Positions 11,261 through 24,746 of a stretch of DNA of 64,000 bases are shown here, piece after piece (positions within the stretch are counted from its first letter, which is position 1; each line of letters starts with the position of its first letter). The notes beneath the pieces were generated by a model that was not told the DNA's origin, did not search any database, and saw nothing but the letters and a program-made list of their open reading frames with translations. The DNA is taken from NCBI GenBank assembly GCA_030017685.1, contig JASEHH010000005.1:1-64000 (forward strand), in the 5' to 3' direction. The stretch comes from Thermodesulfobacteriota bacterium. Its GTDB lineage: Bacteria > Desulfobacterota > BSN033 > UBA1163. The translations under genes and the position numbers were made by a program.

Positions 11261-11809
11261 ATGGATGATATCGGGGAAAAACTGAAGGCCCTCCGGCTGG
11301 CCAATCGAATGACCCTCAAGCAACTGGCTCAGAAGGCCGGTTGCACAGACGCCTATCTTTCCCAACTCGAAAGGGGACGAGCCAACCCTTCCATCATGAT
11401 CCTTAAAAAGGTTGCTTCTGCACTCAAAGTGAAAGTGGTCGACTTCTTCCTCGAAAACGAAACAGAGGAGAACGAAGTGGTCCTTAAGGAGAAGGAGAGG
11501 GTGAATATCAATTTTAAGCGGGGCGATGCAAAGATTCAGATGCTTGTCCGAAATATTCGGGATAAGCGAATGCAGCCCTTTTATACGACGATTGAACCGA
11601 AAGGAGGGTCAAGGGGGTCTTATTCGCATATCGGTGAGGAATTCGGGATTGTGCTCCAGGGACAATTGGAGATCAAACTGAATGAAAAGCCTTATCGATT
11701 GAAGAAGAACGAAAGTTTCTATTTTTCATCCCAGGAACCTCATAGCTGGTCCAATCCGGGCAAGAAAAAGACAGTGGTCATCTGGGTCGTGAGTCCGCCG
11801 ACGTTTTAA
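11261..11809 (+). CDS. XRE-family transcriptional regulator with C-terminal cupin domain
   Basis: HTH LKQLAQKAGCTDAYLSQLERGRANPSIMILKKVASAL plus cupin region SHIGEEFGIVLQGQLEIKL...SFYFSSQEPHSWSNPG. Confidence 0.9.
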   Translation: MDDIGEKLKALRLANRMTLKQLAQKAGCTDAYLSQLERGRANPSIMILKKVASALKVKVVDFFLENETEENEVVLKEKERVNINFKRGDAKIQMLVRNIRDKRMQPFYTTIEPKGGSRGSYSHIGEEFGIVLQGQLEIKLNEKPYRLKKNESFYFSSQEPHSWSNPGKKKTVVIWVVSPPTF

Positions 11810-11873
11810 CCCAACCCCGAAATTCCCACTCAAGGAGAAGAAGTGGGAGACAAACAGAAAGGAGGAATGAAAT

Positions 11874-12941
11874 ATGTGTAACGGATTCACCAGAAGGGAT
11901 TTTTTAAGGAATTCAGTTATCGGTGGTATTGCATTGGGAACTGGATTGGGTGGTTATCAGAGTGCTTACGGACAGACCACCAATTTAAGATTTAGCACCT
12001 GGCATACCCCTCTCAGCAGGGAGGTGAAAACCGTCTGGGAACCGATGCTCGAGGAGATCAAAAAGAAGAGTGGTGGGAAAATCACCTCCACCATGTATGC
12101 CGGCAGCGCTCTGGGCAAAGGGGCGGAACATTTCGATATCGTCGCCAAGGGACTATCCGATATGGGGTACTTCACCGCGACGTGGACACCGGGCCGGTTT
12201 CCTCTTTCGGATGTCCTGTCTCTGGCTGTCTGGGTCGATGGCAAAGACCTAGCCACCGACATCGGCAATGCAATGTACGAACGGATCCTCCATCGGGAGT
12301 TCAAGGATGTGAAGGTGATCGAATTGAACGGGTGCATCCAGTCCTTCCTGTGGACGAAAAAACTGGTCCAGTCCTTATCCGACATAAAAGGACTCAAGAT
12401 AAGATCTCCGGGTGGACATCAAACCCATTATATCAAAGCCCTGGGTGCAGAACCGATTTTTATGCCCCTCCCTGACGTCTATATGGCCATCGAAACAGGA
12501 ACCATCGATGGGCTGGTGACCTGTCCTCCTTTAGTCTTGGCTTTCAAACTGAATGAAGTGGCCAAACACGGAATAGTCACGACTTTCGGTTGTGTCACCG
12601 AAGGGGTGATCATGAACCAGGATAGCTGGAAAAAGGTCCCGGATGACCAGAAGAAGGTGATCGAGGCGGTGGGCCATAATCCTTTCCGTACTACCGGAGG
12701 ATTGACCAGAGAGGCTTACAAGGTCATGATGAAGGAGATTGCTGATAAAGGGGTGAAACTCTATACTCCTCCTGCCGATGAAGCAGAGCGCTGGTTTGAC
12801 GGGTTTAGAGAGGTGACAAGGAAGTGGGTAGCCGATCTGGAAGGGAAGGGGCTTCCAGGAAAAGAAGTCGTGAAGATGTATAACGTGGAGTGTGAAAAGA
12901 GGGGTGTGAAATGCGTCGCCTTCCCACCCGAATGGAAATAA
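11874..12941 (+). CDS. TRAP transporter substrate-binding protein (DctP family) with Tat-type signal
   Basis: RRDFLRNSVIGGIALGTGLGG signal; DctP-type features (LKIRSPGGHQTHYIKALGAEPIFMPLPDVYMAIETGTIDG). Confidence 0.92.
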   Translation: MCNGFTRRDFLRNSVIGGIALGTGLGGYQSAYGQTTNLRFSTWHTPLSREVKTVWEPMLEEIKKKSGGKITSTMYAGSALGKGAEHFDIVAKGLSDMGYFTATWTPGRFPLSDVLSLAVWVDGKDLATDIGNAMYERILHREFKDVKVIELNGCIQSFLWTKKLVQSLSDIKGLKIRSPGGHQTHYIKALGAEPIFMPLPDVYMAIETGTIDGLVTCPPLVLAFKLNEVAKHGIVTTFGCVTEGVIMNQDSWKKVPDDQKKVIEAVGHNPFRTTGGLTREAYKVMMKEIADKGVKLYTPPADEAERWFDGFREVTRKWVADLEGKGLPGKEVVKMYNVECEKRGVKCVAFPPEWK

Positions 12942-12971
12942 GCATCGCACAGGGAGGAGAAGAACGAAACG

Positions 12972-13457
12972 ATGATGTGGATGAAGATCAAAAAAGGGAT
13001 CCAGCGTTTTAACTACTGGTTGTGCGCTGGAGGCATGTTTCTTCTCCTTCCGTTGATGTTGCTGACGACGGGCGATGTGATTGGAAGAAAATTTTTTTCA
13101 AAAACGATTCCGGGATCATTTGAATTATCCGAATACATCCTGGCCACCTTTATCCTGCTGGGTGTTGCTTACACCCAGCAGGTGAGGGGTCATGTAGGCG
13201 TCTCCTTTTTTACTTCCAAATTATCTTCCCGCGGGCAAACCCTGTGCCAGATTTTAACAACCTTCCTCAGTCTGGTCATCATAGCCGTCGTGGTATGGCA
13301 GGGATTGCTCAAAGGGCTCGAGGAAAAAACCGTATCAGATATGTTGAGGATTCCCCAGTATCCATTTAGACTGCTCGTGTCCTTCGGAGGGTTTCTTCTA
13401 TGGATAGAACTTCTGATTGACCTCATCAGTTCAATAGGAAAGCTCGGGAGGAGGTAA
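12972..13457 (+). CDS. TRAP transporter small permease (DctQ family)
   Basis: Four TM segments, position between DctP and DctM. Confidence 0.9.
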   Translation: MMWMKIKKGIQRFNYWLCAGGMFLLLPLMLLTTGDVIGRKFFSKTIPGSFELSEYILATFILLGVAYTQQVRGHVGVSFFTSKLSSRGQTLCQILTTFLSLVIIAVVVWQGLLKGLEEKTVSDMLRIPQYPFRLLVSFGGFLLWIELLIDLISSIGKLGRR

Positions 13458-13459
13458 CC

Positions 13460-14767
13460 GTGGACCCCATCACTTCGGGAATATTGGGAAGCGTTTTGCT
13501 CATCATCCTTCTATTCCTCGGTATGCCCATCGCCTTTGTCATGATGTTGGTGGGATTTGTGGGGATCAGTTACCTAACATCCGTTCATGCCGCAATGCCT
13601 GTTGTGGCCAGGACGGTCTATGAAACCGCCTCCAATTATCCCTATACCATCATCCCTCTTTTTATCCTGATGGGGGGATTTGCAGGAAATGCCGGGATCA
13701 CGCAGGAGCTTTATCAAACCTTTGATAAGTGGTTCAGGAGGTTGCCGGGAGGATTGGGGATTGCCACCATTGCGGCATGCGCTGGGTTCGCTGCCTTAAG
13801 TGGCTCTTCTGTGGCTGGAGCGGCAGCCATGGGGACGATAGCCCTTCCAGAGATGAGACGGTTTAATTATGCTCCGAGGCTTGCCACAGGAGCAGTGGCG
13901 GCAGGAGGAACACTCGGTTTCCTCATCCCACCCAGTCTGGGCTTTGTGGTCTATGGGATGCTCACAGAGCAGTCCATAGGAAAACTTTTAATTTCAGGTG
14001 TCCTTCCCGGAGTTCTCCTCTCCATTGCATTCATAGCGATCATCTTTTTTATGGTAAAAATGAATCCGGCTTTAGCTCCGATGACACCTGGAGCTGTGAG
14101 CTGGAGGGAGAAAGTATTAGCTCTTTCGGGAATTTGGGAAACATTGCTGGTGTTCTTATTGGTCATGGGTGGGATCTATCTCGGTTTTATCAATCCTACA
14201 GAGGCGGGTGCGATCGGCGCAACAGCCCTTTTTGTGATTGTTTTACTTAAAAAGAGATTAACCCTTGACAACCTTTTTGTCTCCCTTCTGGAAGCGGTCC
14301 GGATTTCCGTCATGGTTCTCTTTCTTGTTGCGGGAGCCAATGTTTTCAGTTATTTCCTGGCTCTTTCTACAATCCCGACAGCCGTATCGACCTGGATGGC
14401 CGGGCTCCAAGTCTCTCCCTATGTCATCCTTGCAATCATCGTATCTATTTATTTAGTTCTCGGCTGTTTTTTAGATGCGATATCTATGATGGTTCTGACG
14501 ATGCCGGTCATCTTTCCGGTCATCACCACATTAGGATTTGATCCGATTTACTTCGGTGTCATCTGCGTGCTCATGATGGAGGCGGGTTTGATCACACCAC
14601 CCATGGGGCTCAACGTCTATACCCTTGCGGGCGTGGCAAAGGATGTTCCGATGGAGGAGATCTTCCGTGGCGCTATGCCTTTTCTTATTTCCATCATCGC
14701 AATCGTCTTCCTCGTAACGATTTTCCCTAAGATTGCCCTTTTTCTCCCGAATATGATGGGGAGGTAA
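13460..14767 (+). CDS. TRAP transporter large permease (DctM family)
   Basis: 435 aa, AACAGFAALSGSSVAGAAAMGTIALPEM, LGFLIPPSLGFVVYGMLTEQSIGKLLISGVLPG. Confidence 0.95.
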   Translation: MDPITSGILGSVLLIILLFLGMPIAFVMMLVGFVGISYLTSVHAAMPVVARTVYETASNYPYTIIPLFILMGGFAGNAGITQELYQTFDKWFRRLPGGLGIATIAACAGFAALSGSSVAGAAAMGTIALPEMRRFNYAPRLATGAVAAGGTLGFLIPPSLGFVVYGMLTEQSIGKLLISGVLPGVLLSIAFIAIIFFMVKMNPALAPMTPGAVSWREKVLALSGIWETLLVFLLVMGGIYLGFINPTEAGAIGATALFVIVLLKKRLTLDNLFVSLLEAVRISVMVLFLVAGANVFSYFLALSTIPTAVSTWMAGLQVSPYVILAIIVSIYLVLGCFLDAISMMVLTMPVIFPVITTLGFDPIYFGVICVLMMEAGLITPPMGLNVYTLAGVAKDVPMEEIFRGAMPFLISIIAIVFLVTIFPKIALFLPNMMGR

Positions 14768-15005: not shown

Positions 15006-16526
15006 TTGACGATGGAACCGAAGAGACTCAAAAATTTCATTAATGGACAGTGGGTGGAGTCAAAGACACATCGGTGGCTTGAGGTGAGAAATCCGGCCAC
15101 GGATGAGGTGATTGCCCTCTGTCCGGAAACAACCCCGGACGAAATTGATAGGACGGTAAGGCTCGCCCAGGAAGCCTTCTGGTCATGGAGAAACACGCCC
15201 CCACCCCGGCGCGCAAAATTCCTCTTCGATTTCCACGAGAAACTACAGAAACATCAGGATGAGATTGCGGGGTTGATTGTGAATGAAAACGGAAAGACCC
15301 TGGCCGATGCACGGGGAGAGATAACCCGGGCGATGGAATATGTGGAACATGCCTGCGCGGGGCCCGAACTTCTTAAGGGGAGTCATGCAGAAGATGTGGG
15401 GACCGGTGTCGATACGATGTACATTCGGGAACCCCTCGGCGTTTTCGTATTTCTCCCTCCTTTCAACTTTCCAGCCATGATCGCCCTCTACTTTGTGTGG
15501 GGACTTGCCGCAGGAGATACGGCGATCGTTAAGTCGAGCCGTCTGTGTCCGATGACGGTTACCAGGATAGTTGAGATTGCCGAGGAGTGCGGTTTTCCCA
15601 AAGGGGTGCTCAATCTTCTACACGGTTCAGGGAGTGGAGTGGGCGAAGCCCTGGTTACCCATCCCGGGACTGTTGGGGTTTCCTTTGTCGGCTCTTCGGA
15701 AGTGGGAGAGCGCGTCTATAAAACGGCAATTCATCATAACAAGAGGGCTCAATGCCAGGGAGGCGCAAAGAATCATGTCCTGATTGCCGAGGATGCCATC
15801 ATCGATGAGATCATGCAGAATGTGGTCGACTCCTGCTTCGGTCATGTGGGAGAGCGGTGTTTTGCCGTATCGAATGTGCTGGCTGTTGAGAAGGTTTATG
15901 GGAAGGTCAAAGAGAAGTTCCTCGATCTCTCCAAAAAACTCGTCCTGGGCTACGGCATGGAAAAAGGGGTGACCCTGGGTCCGGTCGTCTCCAAAGAGGC
16001 TTTAAACGAGATGCTCGTAGAGGTGGATCAGGGGATCAAAGATGGGGCAAAGCTCCTGCTCGACGGCAGGAATCCCAGAGTGGATAAATATCCCAAAGGA
16101 TATTTTATTGGTCCTACCGTTTTCGAGGCGGAACCGGAGATGCGCATCTTTCAACTGGAGGTGTTCGGACCGGTTCGCTGTCTCAAGAAGGTGAAGGATC
16201 TCGCAGAGGGTGTTCAGATCATCAATCAAAGCCCTTATGGCCATACGGCAAACATTTACACTGAGAATGGCGGATGGGCTCGAGAATTTGCCCGGTTGGT
16301 CGATGTGGGTCAGGTGGGGATCAATATCGGGACTCCTGCTCCTATTGCCTATTTTCCTGTCGGTGGGAGGAAGATTTCGATGTTCGGCGATATCCGGGGC
16401 CGGGCCAACGAGGCGATTGACTTCTATACCGACAAGAAGGTGATCATCAGCCGGTGGCATTCCTCGTTTCAGGGAGTGGCCAAGACACTGGACGATGGTT
16501 TTGCGATGAAGTATGGGAAGAAGTAA
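15006..16526 (+). CDS. Methylmalonate-semialdehyde-dehydrogenase-like (MmsA-type) aldehyde dehydrogenase
   Basis: 506 aa; MmsA-type motif QGGAKNH, FGHVGERCFAVS, C-terminal LVDVGQVGINIGTPAP...GDIRGRANEAIDFYTDKKVIISRW. Confidence 0.85.
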   Translation: MTMEPKRLKNFINGQWVESKTHRWLEVRNPATDEVIALCPETTPDEIDRTVRLAQEAFWSWRNTPPPRRAKFLFDFHEKLQKHQDEIAGLIVNENGKTLADARGEITRAMEYVEHACAGPELLKGSHAEDVGTGVDTMYIREPLGVFVFLPPFNFPAMIALYFVWGLAAGDTAIVKSSRLCPMTVTRIVEIAEECGFPKGVLNLLHGSGSGVGEALVTHPGTVGVSFVGSSEVGERVYKTAIHHNKRAQCQGGAKNHVLIAEDAIIDEIMQNVVDSCFGHVGERCFAVSNVLAVEKVYGKVKEKFLDLSKKLVLGYGMEKGVTLGPVVSKEALNEMLVEVDQGIKDGAKLLLDGRNPRVDKYPKGYFIGPTVFEAEPEMRIFQLEVFGPVRCLKKVKDLAEGVQIINQSPYGHTANIYTENGGWAREFARLVDVGQVGINIGTPAPIAYFPVGGRKISMFGDIRGRANEAIDFYTDKKVIISRWHSSFQGVAKTLDDGFAMKYGKK

Positions 16527-16841: not shown

Positions 16842-17312
16842 GTGGAGGTAACACTTAAATTCATATTGAATGGGAAGCCTATTGAGGTAAAGGTTCCTCC
16901 TCACTGGACCCTTCTACGGCTTCTTCGTGAGAAATTAGGGCTCACCGGGACAAAGGAGGGCTGTGGAATCGGTGAATGCGGAGCTTGCACTGTCCTGGTG
17001 GATGGTATCCCTCTTCACTCCTGTCTCCTCCTGGCCCCGAAGATAGAAGGGAAAAGTGTTGAAACTGTGGAAGGATTGGGAGGGCGGGATTCTCTCCATG
17101 CGCTTCAGAAATCTTTTGTTGATCATGGGGCGGTCCAGTGCGGATTCTGCACTCCTGGAATATTGATGTCCGCAAAAGCGCTCCTGGATGGAAACCTACA
17201 TCCATCGAAAGAAGAGGTGAAGGAGGCCATTTCCGGTCACCTCTGTCGATGCACTGGATACCAGCAGATCATTGAAGCGATTGAAGCCATCAATAAAGAT
17301 GTTAGAGAATAG
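16842..17312 (+). CDS. 2Fe-2S subunit of a molybdenum hydroxylase (xanthine dehydrogenase family)
   Basis: CGIGECGACTVLVDG and CGFCTPGILMSAKALL...GHLCRCTGYQQI: two [2Fe-2S] motifs. Confidence 0.93.
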   Translation: MEVTLKFILNGKPIEVKVPPHWTLLRLLREKLGLTGTKEGCGIGECGACTVLVDGIPLHSCLLLAPKIEGKSVETVEGLGGRDSLHALQKSFVDHGAVQCGFCTPGILMSAKALLDGNLHPSKEEVKEAISGHLCRCTGYQQIIEAIEAINKDVRE

Positions 17313-17325
17313 AGGGCAGAATTAT

Positions 17326-18195
17326 ATGATTCCTCCTTTTGACTATATAATTCCTGAAACGCTTGAGGAGGCCTGCAATATTCTATGGGAGGCCGGAAAA
17401 GACGTGGGAGTGATTGCAGGAGGGACGGACCGGGTGATCGGCCTGCGCAATGGAGATCACAGCCCCCGCCTTCTCATCGACATCACCCGAATTCCGGAAC
17501 TTCGAAAAATAGAAGAGCAGGACGGAAGGATATTGATAGGCGCCGCCGTTACCCATTCCGAAATTGCCTCTTCTCCTCTGCTGAAGAAATATGGCAGGGT
17601 CCTATCGGATGCAGCCTACGAAATCGGTTCGCCACAAATTAGAAACCTTGGAACAATCGGAGGTAATATTGTCAATGCCTCTCCGGCCGCAGATAGCCTT
17701 CCCCCTTTGATGGTGTTGAATGCTGTCGGAAAGATCGTCTCCAGAGAAGGGGCGAGAGAGGTCCCTCTTGATCAGCTTTTTAAGGGACCTTATGAGACGA
17801 ACCTGAAACCCCATGAGATACTGGTTCACATCGGTTTTGAGAAGCTCTCTTCCGTCATGAGAAGCAGTTTTGTAAGGCTTGCCAGAAGAGAGGCCATGGC
17901 CATTGCGAGGATGAGTATGGCCGTTGTTCTGCGGATTGAAAAGTCGACGAATCTCATTGAGGATATCCGCATCTCTCCTGGAGCCGTTATGCCCCGGCCG
18001 CAAAGAATGTCTGAGGTGGAAGAATTATTGAAACGTAAATCCCCTGACGAGGCAATACTGAAAACGGCCTCGCAAAAGGTTTCCGGGGTAATGGTCCGCA
18101 CAAGCGGTGTCCGATCCTCAACTTCCTATAAAGCGCCTGTGGTGGAGGCTTTATTTTTAAGGGCCATGAGAAGCTGTCTGGAGGATAGGGGATGA
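17326..18195 (+). CDS. FAD-binding subunit of a molybdenum hydroxylase
   Basis: AGGTD, IGSPQIRNLGTIGGNIVNASPAADSLPPL; ATG at 17326 preferred over listed 17272. Confidence 0.92.
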   Translation: MIPPFDYIIPETLEEACNILWEAGKDVGVIAGGTDRVIGLRNGDHSPRLLIDITRIPELRKIEEQDGRILIGAAVTHSEIASSPLLKKYGRVLSDAAYEIGSPQIRNLGTIGGNIVNASPAADSLPPLMVLNAVGKIVSREGAREVPLDQLFKGPYETNLKPHEILVHIGFEKLSSVMRSSFVRLARREAMAIARMSMAVVLRIEKSTNLIEDIRISPGAVMPRPQRMSEVEELLKRKSPDEAILKTASQKVSGVMVRTSGVRSSTSYKAPVVEALFLRAMRSCLEDRG

Positions 18196-20465
18196 GGAGA
18201 CAGGTGGGGACGGACATACCGAAGGTGGATGCGCTGGAGAAAGTTCTAGGGGAAGTCAGGTATGGTGCGGATCTCCCTGCAAAAGAGCCACTTTGTATTA
18301 AGGTTGTCCGGAGTCCAAAATCTCACGCCAAAATTGTGAGAATCGAAATGGATGAGGCTCTCCGCATTCCAGGAGTAGAGAGGGTTTTTACAGCAAAAGA
18401 TATTCCTGGAAAGAACCTCGTTGGAACGATTACCAAGGATCAGCCCATCCTGTGTTCGGATCGGGTGAGGTATATTGGTGACCCGGTCGCATTGGTCGCT
18501 GCCAAAACATCGGAGGCCGCAGAAGCGGCCGCTAAAAAAGTGGTTGTAGTTTATGAAGACCTTCCCGCTCTGAACCACCCTGAAGAGGCTTTCAAACTAA
18601 ATGGACCCCTGATTCACGATAAGGGAAATCTGCTTTTTGAATTTCATGTTATCAAAGGGGATGTTCAGAAGGGATTGAGAGAATCCCATCTCATCATAGA
18701 AAAGACCTATCAGACGACCTGGGTTGATCATGCCTACCTGGAGCCTGATGCAGGTATCTCCTTTCTTGATGAGAAGGGGAGGGTGACGGTCGTCTGTCCA
18801 ACCCAGAATGTTCATTACGATCAAAAAGAAGTGGCCTCTGTGCTTGGGTTGTCCCTGGATCAGGTGAGGATCATCCAATGTGCGACCGGAGGAGGCTTTG
18901 GGGGAAGGCTGGACATCACGATTCAGTGTTTGTTGGCTCTTGCAGTCTTTCATCTCAAAAAACCAGTGAAGATTGTTTACTCGAGGGAGGAGGTCTTTCA
19001 GGTTACGTCCAAACGCCATCCCTTAACGATTCGATATAAAAGTGGTGTGAAAGAAGATGGGACGCTGATTGCCGTGGAAGTGGAAATCTTAGGAGACACG
19101 GGGGCCTATGCTTCTTATGGACCAACGGTAGGCATCCGGTCTGCTGTTCATGCTACTGGACCCTATCACATTCCTAACGTGAAGGTGTGGAGTCGGATGG
19201 CCTATACCAATAATCCATGGTCAGGCGCGATGAGGGGATTCGGAGTGCCTCAGATGGCCTTTGCCCACGAATCTCAGATGGATCTCCTCGCCCAGGCTTT
19301 AAAGATCGATCCCCTTGAGTTTCGTCTAAAAAATTGTCTTCGCATCGGATCCGAGACAGCGACTGGTCAAACCCTGATGGCCAGTGTTGGCATAGGAGAG
19401 ACCTTGAGAAAAGTGAAGGAGTGCAGGGATAAAGCGAACCACTCCGGAGAGGATCCAAAGAGGCCCTTCATCAAGAGAGGGGTGGGAGTGGGCTCGATGT
19501 GGTATGGGATCGGCAATACAGGAATTGCCAACCCCTCGACAGCCCAGATGGAGATTGATCCCAATGGTGAAGTTCGCCTCTACATCGGAGTGGCGGATAT
19601 CGGGCAGGGATCTGACACCGTCCTTCTTCAAATCGCCTCCGAAGGATTAGGGATTCCTTTGAATGAGGTCCGCCTGATTCGGGCCGATACAGCCTTGACG
19701 ACGGATGCAGGGGCCACCTCGGCAAGCCGTCAAACCTATATCTCCGGAAATGCAATCCTCGATGCTATTAAATATTTAAAGCAGGAGGCGATCAAAGAGG
19801 CAGGTCTACTTCTGAGCATGGATGAAAAGGACTTATTTTATGAAGAGGGTAAAGTCAAAGCAAGAACATGTCTAACCACCTCTCTTCCGGTGAGGGAGGT
19901 GGCTAAGAGAAGAGGGAAGGTCATAAAGGGTGAAGGAAGCTTCGATCCTGAGACGACACGGCTCGATCCCAGGACAGGGCAGGGATCGCCCTATGCGACT
20001 TATGCCTTCGCCACCCATCTGGCAGAGGTGGAGGTAGACACGGAGACGGGCAAGGTGAAGGTGAAACGGGTTGTGGCAAGTCACGATGTGGGAAGGGCCA
20101 TCCACCCGAAGAACGTGATCGGTCAGATCACAGGTGGCGTTGCAATGGGAATGGGATTCGCTTTGATGGAGGAGTATGTTCCGGAAGGGACGACCTCTTT
20201 TGTCAACTATCTCATCCCGACATCAAAAGATATTCCTGAGGTGATTCCAATTCTTGTTGAAGAGAATGATCCCAGCGGTCCGTTTGGAGCGAAAGGCGTG
20301 GGAGAACCGGCCCTCATTCCGTGTGCGCCGGCCATATTAAATGCAATTGCGGATGCCATCGGAGAGAGAATATATCAACTTCCTGCCAACCTGGAAAGGG
20401 TGTTGGAGGCAGTTCAAAGAGGTGGAAGTGAAAATTCCAAACATCAAGCACCAATAACCAGATAA
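18192..20465 (+). CDS. Molybdopterin-binding catalytic subunit of a molybdenum hydroxylase (xanthine dehydrogenase family)
   Basis: 757 aa; CATGGGFGGRLD, SGAMRGFGVPQ, FGAKGVGEPALIP (catalytic Glu in GVGE). Confidence 0.93.
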   Translation: MRRQVGTDIPKVDALEKVLGEVRYGADLPAKEPLCIKVVRSPKSHAKIVRIEMDEALRIPGVERVFTAKDIPGKNLVGTITKDQPILCSDRVRYIGDPVALVAAKTSEAAEAAAKKVVVVYEDLPALNHPEEAFKLNGPLIHDKGNLLFEFHVIKGDVQKGLRESHLIIEKTYQTTWVDHAYLEPDAGISFLDEKGRVTVVCPTQNVHYDQKEVASVLGLSLDQVRIIQCATGGGFGGRLDITIQCLLALAVFHLKKPVKIVYSREEVFQVTSKRHPLTIRYKSGVKEDGTLIAVEVEILGDTGAYASYGPTVGIRSAVHATGPYHIPNVKVWSRMAYTNNPWSGAMRGFGVPQMAFAHESQMDLLAQALKIDPLEFRLKNCLRIGSETATGQTLMASVGIGETLRKVKECRDKANHSGEDPKRPFIKRGVGVGSMWYGIGNTGIANPSTAQMEIDPNGEVRLYIGVADIGQGSDTVLLQIASEGLGIPLNEVRLIRADTALTTDAGATSASRQTYISGNAILDAIKYLKQEAIKEAGLLLSMDEKDLFYEEGKVKARTCLTTSLPVREVAKRRGKVIKGEGSFDPETTRLDPRTGQGSPYATYAFATHLAEVEVDTETGKVKVKRVVASHDVGRAIHPKNVIGQITGGVAMGMGFALMEEYVPEGTTSFVNYLIPTSKDIPEVIPILVEENDPSGPFGAKGVGEPALIPCAPAILNAIADAIGERIYQLPANLERVLEAVQRGGSENSKHQAPITR

Positions 20466-20619: not shown

Positions 20620-21783
20620 ATGCCAAAACTGATGATCAAAAATATTGGCACTCTCGTTTCTGGAGATATTTCCAATCCTCTTTTGACAGGAGATGCACTC
20701 ATCGTCGAAGGAGGTTTGATCCAAGCCATTGGCAGGGAGAAGGATCTCGATGTGAGGGGGATCGAACAGGTGATCGATGCAGGAAAGATGACCCTGACTC
20801 CGGGATTGATCGATTCCCACTGCCATCCTGTCCTTGGGGATTTCACGCCGAGGCAGAAGATGCTTGACTTCATCGAATCCTCCCTCCATGGGGGCGTGAC
20901 GACCGCTATCTCGGCAGGAGAGGTCCACCTTCCCGGAAGACCGAAAGATGTTGCAGGGACAAAGGCACTGGCCATCCTTGCCGCTAAATCTTTTGCCAAT
21001 GCCAGACCCTCTGGTGTAAAGGTGCTGGGAGGGAGCATCATCCTTGAGCCAGGCCTGCAGGAGAAGGATTTTGAAGAACTGGCAAGGGAAGGCGTGAAAG
21101 TGGTGGCTGAGATCGGCTTAGGGGGGGTGAAGAGTCCCAAGGAAGCGGCACCTATGGTCAAATGGGCAAAAAAATGCGGAATGGTTGTGATGATGCATAC
21201 AGGTGGGACTTCCATTCCCGGAAGCGCTACCGTTTCCGCTGATGATGTGATCGCAACGGATCCGGATATCGTCTCGCATATCAACGGCGGGCCCACTGCG
21301 GTCTCGTTTGCAGAAGCTGAAAAATTGATTCGGAAGACCGCACTCACCCTGGAGATTGCGCACTGTGGAAATTCGAAGATGATTGTGGATGTGATGAAGA
21401 TCGTAAAAGAGATGAAGGCATATCCACGGATCATCATTGGCAATGATGCCCCTTCCGGAACCGGCGTGATCCCCCTGGGGATTCTGAGGGTCATCAACTT
21501 TCTGGCTTCCCTCTGCGGCGTGAAGGCAGAGGAGGCCATTGCCATGGCAACAGGCAATACAGCAAAGGTTTATAGATTGAACAGAGGTGTGATTGAGGTT
21601 GGCAGAGAGGCTGATCTGGTCATTATGGATGCACCCTTGGGATCAGTTGGTAAAGATGCTCTCTCTGCGATTGAGGCAGGCGATATCCCAGGGATTGCGG
21701 CTGTTTTGATCGATGGCCGGATGAAGATCGGAGTGAGCCGCAATACACCGCCTCCGAATGGGAAGATAGCAATCAGTCAATAA
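20620..21783 (+). CDS. Enamidase-like amidohydrolase (E. barkeri Ena family)
   Basis: 387 aa; TPGLIDSHCHPVLGDFTPRQKMLDFIESSLHGGVTTAISAGEVHLPGRPKDVAGTKALA, MHTGGTSIPGSATVSADDVI, SHINGGPTA, GNDAPSGTGVIPLGILR. Recognised from memory as resembling enamidase. Confidence 0.82.
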   Translation: MPKLMIKNIGTLVSGDISNPLLTGDALIVEGGLIQAIGREKDLDVRGIEQVIDAGKMTLTPGLIDSHCHPVLGDFTPRQKMLDFIESSLHGGVTTAISAGEVHLPGRPKDVAGTKALAILAAKSFANARPSGVKVLGGSIILEPGLQEKDFEELAREGVKVVAEIGLGGVKSPKEAAPMVKWAKKCGMVVMMHTGGTSIPGSATVSADDVIATDPDIVSHINGGPTAVSFAEAEKLIRKTALTLEIAHCGNSKMIVDVMKIVKEMKAYPRIIIGNDAPSGTGVIPLGILRVINFLASLCGVKAEEAIAMATGNTAKVYRLNRGVIEVGREADLVIMDAPLGSVGKDALSAIEAGDIPGIAAVLIDGRMKIGVSRNTPPPNGKIAISQ

Positions 21784-21889
21784 GTGACTAAAGTTGAAAG
21801 TGCCTAAAGTGACTAAAGTTGGAAGTGAATAAAGTTTTAAAACTCACTTTAGACACTTTAGCTCACTTTAGTTCACTTTAGTCACTTAT
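21781..21889. repeat. Phrase-type hairpin built of AAGTGnnTAAAG units and their complement
   Basis: taagtgactaaagttgaaagtgcctaaagtgactaaagttggaagtgaataaagttttaa / aactcactttagacactttagctcactttagttcactttagtcactta. Confidence 0.88.
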
Positions 21890-21921
21890 ACTTTTTGACC
21901 CAATTTGAGAGATGGGGATTG

Positions 21922-23442
21922 ATGATGATTGTTAATTTAGAAACCTGTATTGGGTGCGGATTGTGCGTGGAGGTCTGTCCCCTTCAGGCCATCTCCATGA
22001 CGCCTGAGGAGAAGGCATGCATCTCCGATATCTGTGTTGATTGCAAAGCCTGCACAAGGGCTTGTCCAACAGAGGCCATTGCGCCTGAGGAAGAGCCAAA
22101 AGAGGGGGGGGTAAAATGTCCCTCCTGCCCGATCTTCTGCACGATCAGACCTGGCAATACTGGGGCGTGCCAGCGTTTTGTTAATCAAGATGGAAGCCTG
22201 ATTCGGAATATCCCACTCCAGCGCTATGAGGATGTGAAAGAGATCGTTGGTGAGGTCCATGAGGAGGTGATCCGGAGGCCATTGATTACTGGAATCGGCG
22301 CAGGGACGACCTATCCTGATACCAAACCCGCACCCTATATTGTCCAATCGGAACTGGATGGAATTGATGTTGTCACGGTTGTCACAGAAGCCCCGATGAG
22401 TTATAGCGGCATCAAGGTGAAGATCGATACGGACACACATATCGGTAAAGAAGGCGCTCCCGTTCTCATCGGGAAAAAGAGGATTGGCCATCTCTGTACG
22501 GAAGAGTATGGCTCTAAGATTCTCTCATTAGGAGGAGTCAATCTTCTTACCGGCGAAGAGGGCCTTGTCGTCGCCAAACTTATTGTCGATATCGCCAATC
22601 GGAGAGAGGTCCATCTCAAAGTGGAAGAGGGAGCGGAGATGGTTCTTCAAGTGGGCAAGGCTCCTATCATCAATGGCAAAACAGGTACCAGGATGAGAGT
22701 TGGTTGCGGCAGTGCATCTATGGGGCTCTTCGGAAGATATTTCCTGGATGCGGCAGATGAGGTGGTTGTCCTGGATTCCCATCTCATCGGGCAGTTCACA
22801 GAGCATGCGGCAGGAAAGGAGTTGGGGGCTAAATATAGCGGCGTCCGGTTGAGGGCGAGACAGTCCACTCCCGGTCGTTACTTCGGTGAACATGGCAAGG
22901 GATGGGGAGGGACGCCCATTGAGAGCCCGATCGAGATCATCGAGGGTTTCGATCCAAAGATCGCAAAACCGGGGATGACCGTCCTTATCACAGAGACAAC
23001 AGCAGAACGGGCCGCCATGTTTCGTCTGGATGAGAATGGTAAATTTACCCGGATGGATTTAAGCCCAAAAGCAAAGAGGGCAATCGATATGATGGCCTCT
23101 AACTGCCAGCCATCAACGGTTTCCGCCATCTATGTGGGCGGTGCAGGAGGAAGCGCCAGGGCGGGGGTCACAAAGATTCCCGTGAAACTGAATCAAGCCA
23201 TTCATCAGAACCGAGCAAAACTGACCGTGGGGGGAGCGCCGACCTATATTCTGCCAGGAGGTGGAATCACTTTCTTGGTCGATGTGGAAAAGGTAATGGT
23301 GAGAGCCTTCACCTATGTGCCGACTCCTGCGACAGTTGTTCCCCTCGAATATACGATGAGGCTGGATGAATATCTGGAGATAGGGGGGCATAAAGAGAAA
23401 ATTCGAAAATTGAAAGAGGTCTTGAAGGAGATTAAGAAATAA
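21922..23442 (+). CDS. 6-hydroxynicotinate-reductase-like iron-sulfur protein (Hnr family)
   Basis: Two ferredoxin-type motifs (CIGCGLCVEVCP; CVDCKACTRACP), an extra Cys set CPSCPIFCTIRPGNTGAC, and a large conserved C-terminal domain; directly downstream of the enamidase-like gene. ATG at 21922 preferred over TTG at 21895. Confidence 0.75.
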   Translation: MMIVNLETCIGCGLCVEVCPLQAISMTPEEKACISDICVDCKACTRACPTEAIAPEEEPKEGGVKCPSCPIFCTIRPGNTGACQRFVNQDGSLIRNIPLQRYEDVKEIVGEVHEEVIRRPLITGIGAGTTYPDTKPAPYIVQSELDGIDVVTVVTEAPMSYSGIKVKIDTDTHIGKEGAPVLIGKKRIGHLCTEEYGSKILSLGGVNLLTGEEGLVVAKLIVDIANRREVHLKVEEGAEMVLQVGKAPIINGKTGTRMRVGCGSASMGLFGRYFLDAADEVVVLDSHLIGQFTEHAAGKELGAKYSGVRLRARQSTPGRYFGEHGKGWGGTPIESPIEIIEGFDPKIAKPGMTVLITETTAERAAMFRLDENGKFTRMDLSPKAKRAIDMMASNCQPSTVSAIYVGGAGGSARAGVTKIPVKLNQAIHQNRAKLTVGGAPTYILPGGGITFLVDVEKVMVRAFTYVPTPATVVPLEYTMRLDEYLEIGGHKEKIRKLKEVLKEIKK

Positions 23443-23598
23443 ATAACCAATACCCAAAAACCAATAACCAAATAAATTCCAATCACCAATATCCAATATA
23501 CAAAAGCATTATTTAAGATCAATTTATGTTTGGTGATTGTAATTTGGTGATTGGTGATTATTTGGATCTTGGAATTTGGTTATTGGGAGTTGGTGGAT
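23443..23598. repeat. Phrase-F inverted repeat (AATAACCAATACCCAAAAACCAATAACC / GGTGATTGTAATTTGGTGATTGGTGATTATTTGG)
   Basis: Complementary low-complexity arms filling the whole spacer. Confidence 0.8.
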
Positions 23599-24480
23599 AT
23601 GAGAATGCAATTGGCCGAGAAAATATACTCGCATGATCCTATTCAGGTTCTTGCCAGCGGAACCGTCCTCGTGGATTATGGTCCCATGAGGATGTTCATC
23701 ACTGTTATGGAGAAAGGGAAACCTATTATAAGTTTAGCCAAAGAAGGCGCTTGTCTGGCGATACAAATTCTTGAAGACTTGGCAGAATTTCTTCCTGTGA
23801 TTAAAATAAAATCACAGGAGTTGAAAATCGAAGAGGCCTTTCCTGATGTCGTCCGAAGAATGATCGAAGCTACAAAAAAGATGGGGGAACCCGATCTCAC
23901 TCCGCTTGCGGCGGTTGCAGGGACGACCTCTGATAGGGTTGCTGATTTTATCTTCAGCAGGGGGGGGACGAAGGTCATCGTTGATAATGGAGGAGATATC
24001 GCCATCCGATTGAGAGAAGGCGAGGTGACGAGAATAGGAGTGAAGACAGATATTCAGGCAAGAGATCCAGATTATCTGATTACAGTTGATTCTACGACCG
24101 GAATCGGCGGGGTGGCAACGAGTGGCCTTGGGGGAAGAAGTTTCACCAAAGGGATTGCCTCAGCAGCAACCGTGCTTGCAGAAAACGCATCCCTGGCTGA
24201 CGCCGCGGCGACGGTGGTTGGAAATTTTACCAATGTGGATGACCCCAATATCACCAGAACCCTTGCTGAAAAAATATATCCTGACACGGATATTGCCGGA
24301 GAATGGGTGACAGTGGAGGTTGGGAAGTTATCATCAGAAAAAATTGAAGTGGCTTTGAACAGAGGACTGTCCAAGGCATACTCAATTTTCCAGAAGAGAT
24401 GGATTCAAGGAGCTTTGATTGCTGTTCAAGGGAACGTCGCTTGGACGGATTCATTAGATTCCTTATTAAAGAAATTGTAA
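23599..24480 (+). CDS. UPF0280 (COG2122, ApbE superfamily) protein
   Basis: FGPM-like start (VLVDYGPMRMFI), VDNGGDIAIRL, GVATSGLGGRSFTKGIASAATVLAENASLADAAATVVGN. The listed start at 23551 translates repeat sequence; ATG 23599 preferred. Confidence 0.82.
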   Translation: MRMQLAEKIYSHDPIQVLASGTVLVDYGPMRMFITVMEKGKPIISLAKEGACLAIQILEDLAEFLPVIKIKSQELKIEEAFPDVVRRMIEATKKMGEPDLTPLAAVAGTTSDRVADFIFSRGGTKVIVDNGGDIAIRLREGEVTRIGVKTDIQARDPDYLITVDSTTGIGGVATSGLGGRSFTKGIASAATVLAENASLADAAATVVGNFTNVDDPNITRTLAEKIYPDTDIAGEWVTVEVGKLSSEKIEVALNRGLSKAYSIFQKRWIQGALIAVQGNVAWTDSLDSLLKKL

Positions 24481-24489
24481 AAGATGGAA

Positions 24490-24627
24490 TCGTAAAAAGG
24501 TCATTCCCGTGAAAACGGGAATCCAGAGAATTCTAACTACTTGAAAATACTGGATTCCTGCTGGAGTTTATCCCGATGAAAATCGGGGCAGGAATGACTG
24601 ATAATGTGCTTTTCAGACTTTTTACGA
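24490..24627. repeat. Nested repeat: TCGTAAAAAG/CTTTTTACGA arms around REP-like family R copy 4 (24500-24598)
   Basis: tcattcccgtgaaaacgggaatccag ... ctggattcctgc[tggagtttatcccgatgaaaatcggg]gcaggaatgac. Confidence 0.85.
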
Positions 24628-24746
24628 GGCCATTATAAAAAGAAATCTCCCTTGCTCACCCCTCGCGGGAGAGGGGTAGCCTGCCTGCCCCGCCCTCGAT
24701 CGGGACCGGGGCCGGTAGGCAGGGGTGAGGGGCAGGAGGTGTGATT

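Follow-up and report, generated by a model that had tools for sequence, protein, structure and literature searches.

Organization of the gene cluster

We analysed 64,000 nucleotides of contig JASEHH010000005.1 from a Thermodesulfobacteriota bacterium, and this whole stretch is called the window. The genes and motifs considered here are as follows.

15006-16526 (+): CoA-acylating methylmalonate-semialdehyde dehydrogenase (MMSDH)-type protein (TIGR01722, 469 bits; cut-off 448.5)
16842-20465 (+): molybdenum hydroxylase of the nicotinate-dehydrogenase type, three genes (2Fe-2S, FAD and Mo subunits)
20620-21783 (+): enamidase-like amidohydrolase, which occurs in nearly all Hnr loci
21922-23442 (+): hnr-like gene, 506 aa, putative 6-hydroxynicotinate reductase (Hnr)
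21946-22170 (+): Fe-S region of Hnr, with two ferredoxin-type four-Cys motifs (C9-C48) and a third motif, CxxCx3Cx9C (C66-C83)
22705-22707 (+): codon of Hnr C262, within GCGSA[ST], a candidate cofactor-site residue
23599-24480 (+): UPF0280/COG2122 gene, 293 aa, from the Hnr-linked clade; its product is a candidate maturation partner of Hnr (from ORF, profiles, tree and co-occurrence)
23986-23997 (+): UPF0280 codons N130-G131-G132-D133 (NGGD), equivalent of the ApbE GGD strand
24115-24138 (+): UPF0280 codons A173-T174-S175-G176-L-G-G-R180; S175 is the equivalent of ApbE Ser241 (PMC12052999)
24196-24213 (+): UPF0280 codons A200-D201-A-A-A-T205, equivalents of ApbE Asp285 and of D280/T284 in E. 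coli Ftp (PMC4767422)
24741-25325 (+): AA_synth (PF06684) protein, a conserved neighbour

The UPF0280 protein is encoded by an intact ORF. This ORF was listed as 23551-24480 with a TTG start; however, the ATG of 23599 is the best-fitting start because the homologues begin there. The gene lies directly downstream of the hnr-like gene, as the sequence-only reading of this DNA had described. It is on the same strand, 156 bp beyond the hnr-like gene's end at 23442.

Just upstream of the cluster, 11261-14767 encodes an HTH-cupin regulator together with a DctP-type binding protein and a TRAP-type permease of large size, which are the probable regulator and the probable substrate importer. The MMSDH-type protein probably serves a later step of the same nicotinate pathway, and an enzyme of this type is also encoded in a Firmicute cluster (L189, 3329-4822). 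Since 2-formylglutarate is a substituted malonate semialdehyde, such an enzyme could convert it directly to glutaryl-CoA and CO2, a route that would be an alternative to the hgd/mgm/mii/dml branch of E. barkeri. The AA_synth protein is almost as constant a neighbour in Hnr clusters as UPF0280. The operon gaps of the window (21784-21900, 23443-23598, and 24481-24740) contain a short repeated sequence, with agtgactaaagtt, ccaataaccaa, and a tcccgtgaaaacgggaatccag-like inverted repeat, and contrast with the tight or overlapping gene spacing in many relatives.

Characterization of the Hnr protein

The gene adjacent to UPF0280 is a putative Hnr gene: its product carries Fe-S motifs for three clusters, it lies in a molybdenum-hydroxylase/enamidase gene context, and its homologues sit in clusters of the E. 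barkeri type. The Hnr of E. barkeri is said to contain two [4Fe-4S] clusters and one [2Fe-2S] cluster, which the set of two ferredoxin-type motifs and a third four-Cys motif fits, and reportedly also a covalently bound flavin. In the Hnr alignment, the twelve Cys within residues 9-83 were conserved at 98-100%, and outside the Fe-S motifs no Cys other than C262 was invariant (64/64). The alignment also includes invariant or nearly invariant Ser/Thr. The GCGSA[ST] motif was rejected as a flavinylation site, as position 266 is Ser/Thr in 58 of 64 sequences and neither in the remaining 6.

Outside the ferredoxin part, the comparison of Hnr with PDB and Pfam gave only a weak similarity to GCV_T_C, seen for 18 of the 47 members, and an AlphaFold model from a 10-sequence alignment reached a pLDDT of 52, too low for use. 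The search for further Hnr sequences in viral contigs returned none.

Co-occurrence and adjacency of Hnr and UPF0280

We searched 395 genomes of the phylum of the source bacterium. The search resulted in 62 Hnr matches in 58 genomes, and the UPF0280 matches fell into two score classes (176-516 bits versus at most 95 bits). Hnr and the Hnr-clade UPF0280 occurred together in 57 genomes, Hnr alone in 1, this UPF0280 alone in 2, and neither in 335 (Fisher p 3e-65); in the sole genome with Hnr only, the contig stops 304 bp beyond the Hnr gene. A high-score UPF0280 gene was directly downstream of 56 of the 62 Hnr genes on the same strand, the spacing of the HMM matches ranging from -8 to 433 bp, and the two genes overlap in some genomes. 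Of the six exceptions, three (G186, G131, and G237) are explained by a contig end or a split gene, two (G161 and G159) have Hnr and UPF0280 on separate contigs, and one is a second Hnr (G044). Among the hnr loci detected in the genome_contigs collection, UPF0280 was directly downstream in 9/9, down to 51% Hnr identity, and one of these nine is a Firmicute locus with the remaining genes rearranged.

In a second search, 398 genomes of the Firmicutes, here the phylum of Acididesulfobacillus, were used. Hnr was found in 15 of them, all 15 with a high-class UPF0280, which adjoins Hnr at 14 of the 16 Hnr genes; the enamidase gene adjoins Hnr at about 12 of the 16. In three clusters (L181, L184, and L192), the hnr-UPF0280 pair is followed by hgd-, B12 mutase-, mii-, and dml-like genes, the sequences being judged by eye. 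These are nicotinate clusters of the E. barkeri type; therefore, the pair belongs to a genuine Hnr system. The pair was also intact where other genes are shuffled (L019, L183, L189, and L192).

A point against the partnership is that a few Hnr genes have no adjoining UPF0280, among them that of G161 and second copies in G044, G768, and G511 (3 kb away in the last), although each of these genomes encodes UPF0280 elsewhere. Two of the second copies (L196, 8636-12549, in G768; L113, 4019-7482, in G044) have other neighbours: downstream of one are two genes for enamidase-like proteins and one for a RidA-like protein, whereas the other precedes genes for an enamidase and for a dehydrogenase similar to aspartate dehydrogenase. 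They perhaps act on other substrates.

The protein distances of Hnr and UPF0280 were correlated over 69 pairs with r = 0.85, whereas the best of 999 permutations gave 0.16; this value is supporting evidence only, as shared host ancestry would contribute. The two genomes with an Hnr-clade UPF0280 and no Hnr (G200 and G340; L111, 7598-8464, and L112) are related, and their orphan copies carry changes at otherwise invariant motifs, namely NGGD to NGED, VAG to VRG, and GGRS to GHPG. Judged by these changes, the orphan copies represent decay where Hnr is absent, a natural loss experiment.

The cluster occurs in scattered lineages and was probably transferred horizontally, so that UPF0280 might be a neutral passenger of a mobile catabolic cluster. 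This is highly improbable given that its motifs are invariant across both phyla, that the pair is kept despite rearrangement, and that UPF0280 decays only where Hnr is missing. The association proposed by the sequence-only reading was thus borne out by near-perfect co-occurrence, adjacency, co-divergence, a clade of its own, and decay in genomes devoid of Hnr. That the window UPF0280 is a dedicated Hnr partner is well supported by the co-occurrence, the adjacency, and the separate clade, and the Hnr-clade UPF0280 can serve as a marker gene for the anaerobic nicotinate pathway.

Two UPF0280 clades with two partners

The earlier statement that UPF0280/COG2122 lacks a function is outdated. In Desulfovibrio vulgaris, COG2122 is needed for homocysteine synthesis together with DUF39 and a NIL/ferredoxin protein, and its fitness profile matches that of DUF39 at r = 0.98 (PMC5764234). 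The same study cites a proposed role of COG2122 in persulfide formation, and MA1715 of Methanosarcina has been called a sulfur trafficking protein (PMC12068725).

The tree of 102 UPF0280 proteins separated the Hnr-linked clade from the homocysteine clade with a support of 100/100 across a branch of 2.18. L279, a row that carried the homocysteine label and yet grouped with Hnr-clade proteins, is the L111 orphan gene itself. In 54 genomes, the homocysteine-clade UPF0280 and DUF39 occurred together in 37, DUF39 alone in 2, this UPF0280 alone in 4, and neither in 11. The clades are fully separated by partner in the Firmicutes: among the 15 genomes with Hnr, five have DUF39, each with exactly one low-class UPF0280 beside it; in the ten with no DUF39, the Hnr-clade copy is the only UPF0280. 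The complete Acididesulfobacillus genome (L019, G400) likewise has the Hnr-linked copy as its sole UPF0280, with neither DUF39 nor a true ApbE. Therefore, a homocysteine role cannot be what keeps the Hnr-linked copy. Lying in a separate clade and not tracking DUF39, the window UPF0280 falls outside the homocysteine group. The source genome also carries a homocysteine-type UPF0280 and one DUF39, on separate contigs (L272, C246; L278, C221).

Two alignment positions distinguish the clades: position 173 is Ala in 64 of 75 Hnr-clade sequences versus Cys in 27 of 28 of the homocysteine clade, and position 180 is Arg (72/75) versus His (26/28). The recognition of an Hnr-bound clade sets apart two functions that share one family name, and Hnr-linked copies are not to be annotated as homocysteine genes.

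The homocysteine system suggests an alternative in which UPF0280 is a sulfur or Fe-S handling partner, serving the Hnr clusters or an Hnr thiol. The genetic requirement for COG2122 with DUF39 and NIL/ferredoxin and the naming of MA1715 speak for it. The order DUF39-NIL/Fdx-UPF0280 (L273) resembles that of Hnr, with its ferredoxin domain, and UPF0280. In addition, a segment of Hnr is weakly similar to the part of DUF39 that surrounds the active Cys. On the other hand, the Hnr clade has no conserved Cys, its best column reaching 13/75. This speaks against a persulfide carrier, and that specific role was rejected; moreover, Cys173 and His180 of the homocysteine clade are replaced there as described above. 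The DUF39 Cys aligns with Ser/Tyr of Hnr. We therefore regard a sulfur or Fe-S handling partner as rather unlikely.

Hnr and DUF39 each have a paired UPF0280 and each use a ferredoxin domain or subunit. The similarity itself concerns Hnr residues 148-162 (22363-22407), DVVTVVTEAPMSYSG, which resemble the DUF39 active-Cys motif DVVTTGTFGPMCSSG. Set against DVVTTGTFxPMCSSG of DUF39, the Hnr segment is striking by eye, and the Cys is not shared. We do not claim homology of Hnr to DUF39/COG1900, as the best local match (DVVTxxTxxPMxxSG) scored 26.5 versus 25.5 for the best of 60 controls with reversed or column-shuffled profiles, a difference that is not significant; the match is kept only as a lead.

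Relationship of UPF0280 to ApbE

ApbE proteins are FAD:protein FMN transferases. The Pfam ApbE profile (PF02424) matched the window UPF0280 weakly, with 27.7 bits (cut-off 25.6) and over residues 74-185 only. The NCBIfam profile of UPF0280, PRK04334.1-2 (NF003322), clearly matched residues 15-285 with an E of 8e-65 and 218.7 bits, which is below its equivalog cut-off of 290 bits. The profile comparison of UPF0280 with 30 true ApbE (hhalign) gave 97% and an E of 1e-10, the alignment beginning at ApbE column 186, in the second half of ApbE. The predicted UPF0280 structure had a pLDDT of 63, a medium confidence, and was weak across residues 147-213. Its best match was 2o34 (DVU1097; Foldseek E 8e-7; VIA Z 10.9; 193 residues), followed by ApbE/Ftp/FmnB entries with Z of 7.3-8.6, and the remainder had Z of at most 5.9. 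The predicted structure together with the profile comparison places UPF0280 in the ApbE fold superfamily.

The catalytic residues of ApbE are Ser241, His257, and Asp285 (PMC12052999), and D280 and T284 bind metal in E. coli Ftp (PMC4767422). In the alignment of 103 UPF0280 sequences from both clades, S175 was kept in 103, D201 in 102, and T205 in 102; D201 and T205 are the counterparts of ApbE Asp285 and of the Ftp metal ligands. NGGD is invariant or nearly so in both clades. R180, an Hnr-clade-specific residue, sits near the place that the phosphate-binding Arg takes in ApbE (R240 in E. coli Ftp) and may be its equivalent. In contrast, the segment with the general base His257 (HHI-D-P-x-TG) was deleted in the UPF0280 profile alignment, and the N-terminal FAD-binding region (GaFDxT) had no counterpart there. 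In agreement with the latter, the ApbE homology of COG2122 has been described as not seeming to extend to the flavin-binding region (PMC5764234). The search for a conserved His in the Hnr clade found no column above 22/75.

The sequence-only reading had proposed UPF0280 as flavin transferase or maturase for Hnr. As an ApbE-type FMN transferase, UPF0280 would cleave FAD and join FMN via a phosphoester to a Ser/Thr of Hnr. The ApbE homology, found by Pfam, profile comparison, and structure, is consistent with this mechanism, as are the nearly universal equivalents of Ser241, Asp285, and the metal-ligand Thr, the invariant or nearly invariant Ser/Thr available in Hnr, and the covalent flavin that E. 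barkeri Hnr reportedly carries. True ApbE was not found in 32 of 73 Hnr genomes, some of which are incomplete, and the true ApbE of the source genome has a signal-like N-terminus and is probably not cytosolic, whereas UPF0280 has no clear hydrophobic signal segment. A classical ApbE is therefore not a general solution for a cytosolic Hnr, which leaves UPF0280 as the only ApbE-fold candidate for the Hnr flavin.

Against the transferase stand the missing His257 segment, the missing N-terminal part, and the poor conservation of His in the Hnr clade. The ApbE target motif, D-x-x-[ST]-G-A-[ST] (PMC12052999), was found in 0 of 63 Hnr sequences, which confirmed for the window Hnr and extended to the whole set the earlier remark that the classical motif is missing; the nearest look-alike is the GCGSA[ST] motif with its incompletely conserved position 266. 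In addition, covalent flavin links other than the phosphoester (8-alpha to His, Cys, or Tyr) form with no transferase (PMC12052999), so Hnr may need none. Consequently, the earlier proposal stands in part: the maturase fits the link to Hnr well, whereas for the transferase the fold and part of the active site are kept, yet UPF0280 lacks the catalytic His and the N-terminal FAD-binding part, and Hnr lacks the target motif. Flavin transfer by UPF0280 onto Hnr is possible but less likely than not, and the phosphoester version of it is a doubtful one.

Proposed role of UPF0280 in Hnr maturation

Our preferred reading, to which we assign a probability of about 0.55, is that UPF0280 works in the cytosol as a dedicated partner of Hnr and most probably as its maturation factor, using a surviving metal/phosphate site by a mechanism different from that of ApbE. 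NGGD, S175, R180, D201, and T205 would form this site, where the protein would bind a divalent metal and the phosphate of a nucleotide or flavin, and it would help Hnr to acquire its functional cofactor state, possibly the covalent flavin. The mechanism would differ from that of ApbE because UPF0280 has neither the general-base His nor the N-terminal FAD-binding part, and Hnr has no ApbE target motif. We infer that UPF0280 acts on Hnr and matures it, and that flavin is the cofactor involved.

A counterpoint to the maturase is that enamidase and AA_synth are linked to Hnr almost as well, by pathway-wide selection; a maturase, a subunit, and a pathway enzyme would look the same from co-inheritance alone. 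UPF0280 might instead be a metabolic enzyme or a part of Hnr, for example a FAD/nucleotide hydrolase or an accessory turnover subunit. The metal/phosphate site is kept, an ApbE relative, the Ftp of T. pallidum, hydrolyses FAD (PMC4767422), and strict gene pairing with overlap in some genomes is often seen for subunits. However, no additional step is required between 6-hydroxynicotinate and formylglutarate in the pathway. Active Hnr purified from E. barkeri reportedly consisted, moreover, of a single kind of subunit, and we consider an enzyme or subunit role unlikely.

A more speculative extension of the maturation factor is that UPF0280 represents a second, cytosolic class of ApbE-fold cofactor installers that operate with no ApbE His, the Hnr clade installing or activating the Hnr flavin and the sister clade modifying DUF39/ferredoxin analogously; we hold this generalization to be improbable as a whole. 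What is new here is an Hnr-specific variant of an already known UPF0280 family. As this COG2122 clade is tied one-to-one to a single purifiable enzyme, the source of the Hnr flavin and the chemistry of COG2122 can be addressed together.

Comparison with known systems

Three known systems are related to the pair described here. The nicotinate fermentation of E. barkeri uses ndh, hnr, ena, hgd, mgm, mii, and dml, and the first three enzyme types are also present in the window. Unlike E. barkeri, the window has the MMSDH-type dehydrogenase, and no hgd-, mgm-, mii-, or dml-like genes were seen next to hnr; clusters similar to that of E. barkeri and harboring hnr-UPF0280 are L181, L184, and L192. 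In the literature searched, UPF0280 was not found mentioned for the E. barkeri nicotinate pathway.

The ApbE/Ftp/FmnB proteins (PF02424) have a common fold with UPF0280, in which the equivalents of Ser241, Asp285, and the metal-ligand Thr are present. Unlike them, UPF0280 has neither the His257/DPxTG segment nor the GaFDxT region nor a signal-like segment, and unlike the partners in ApbE systems, Hnr has no target motif.

The closest counterparts are the COG2122 proteins of homocysteine synthesis (MA1715, DvMF_0044, and DVU1097 with structure 2o34). In their clade Cys173/His180 is present, and neither the GP motif nor the C-terminal insertion occurs. They are of the same family and fold as the window UPF0280, share NGGD, TS(S)G, and ADAAAT with it, and, like the Hnr-clade copy, adjoin a ferredoxin-dependent reductase system.
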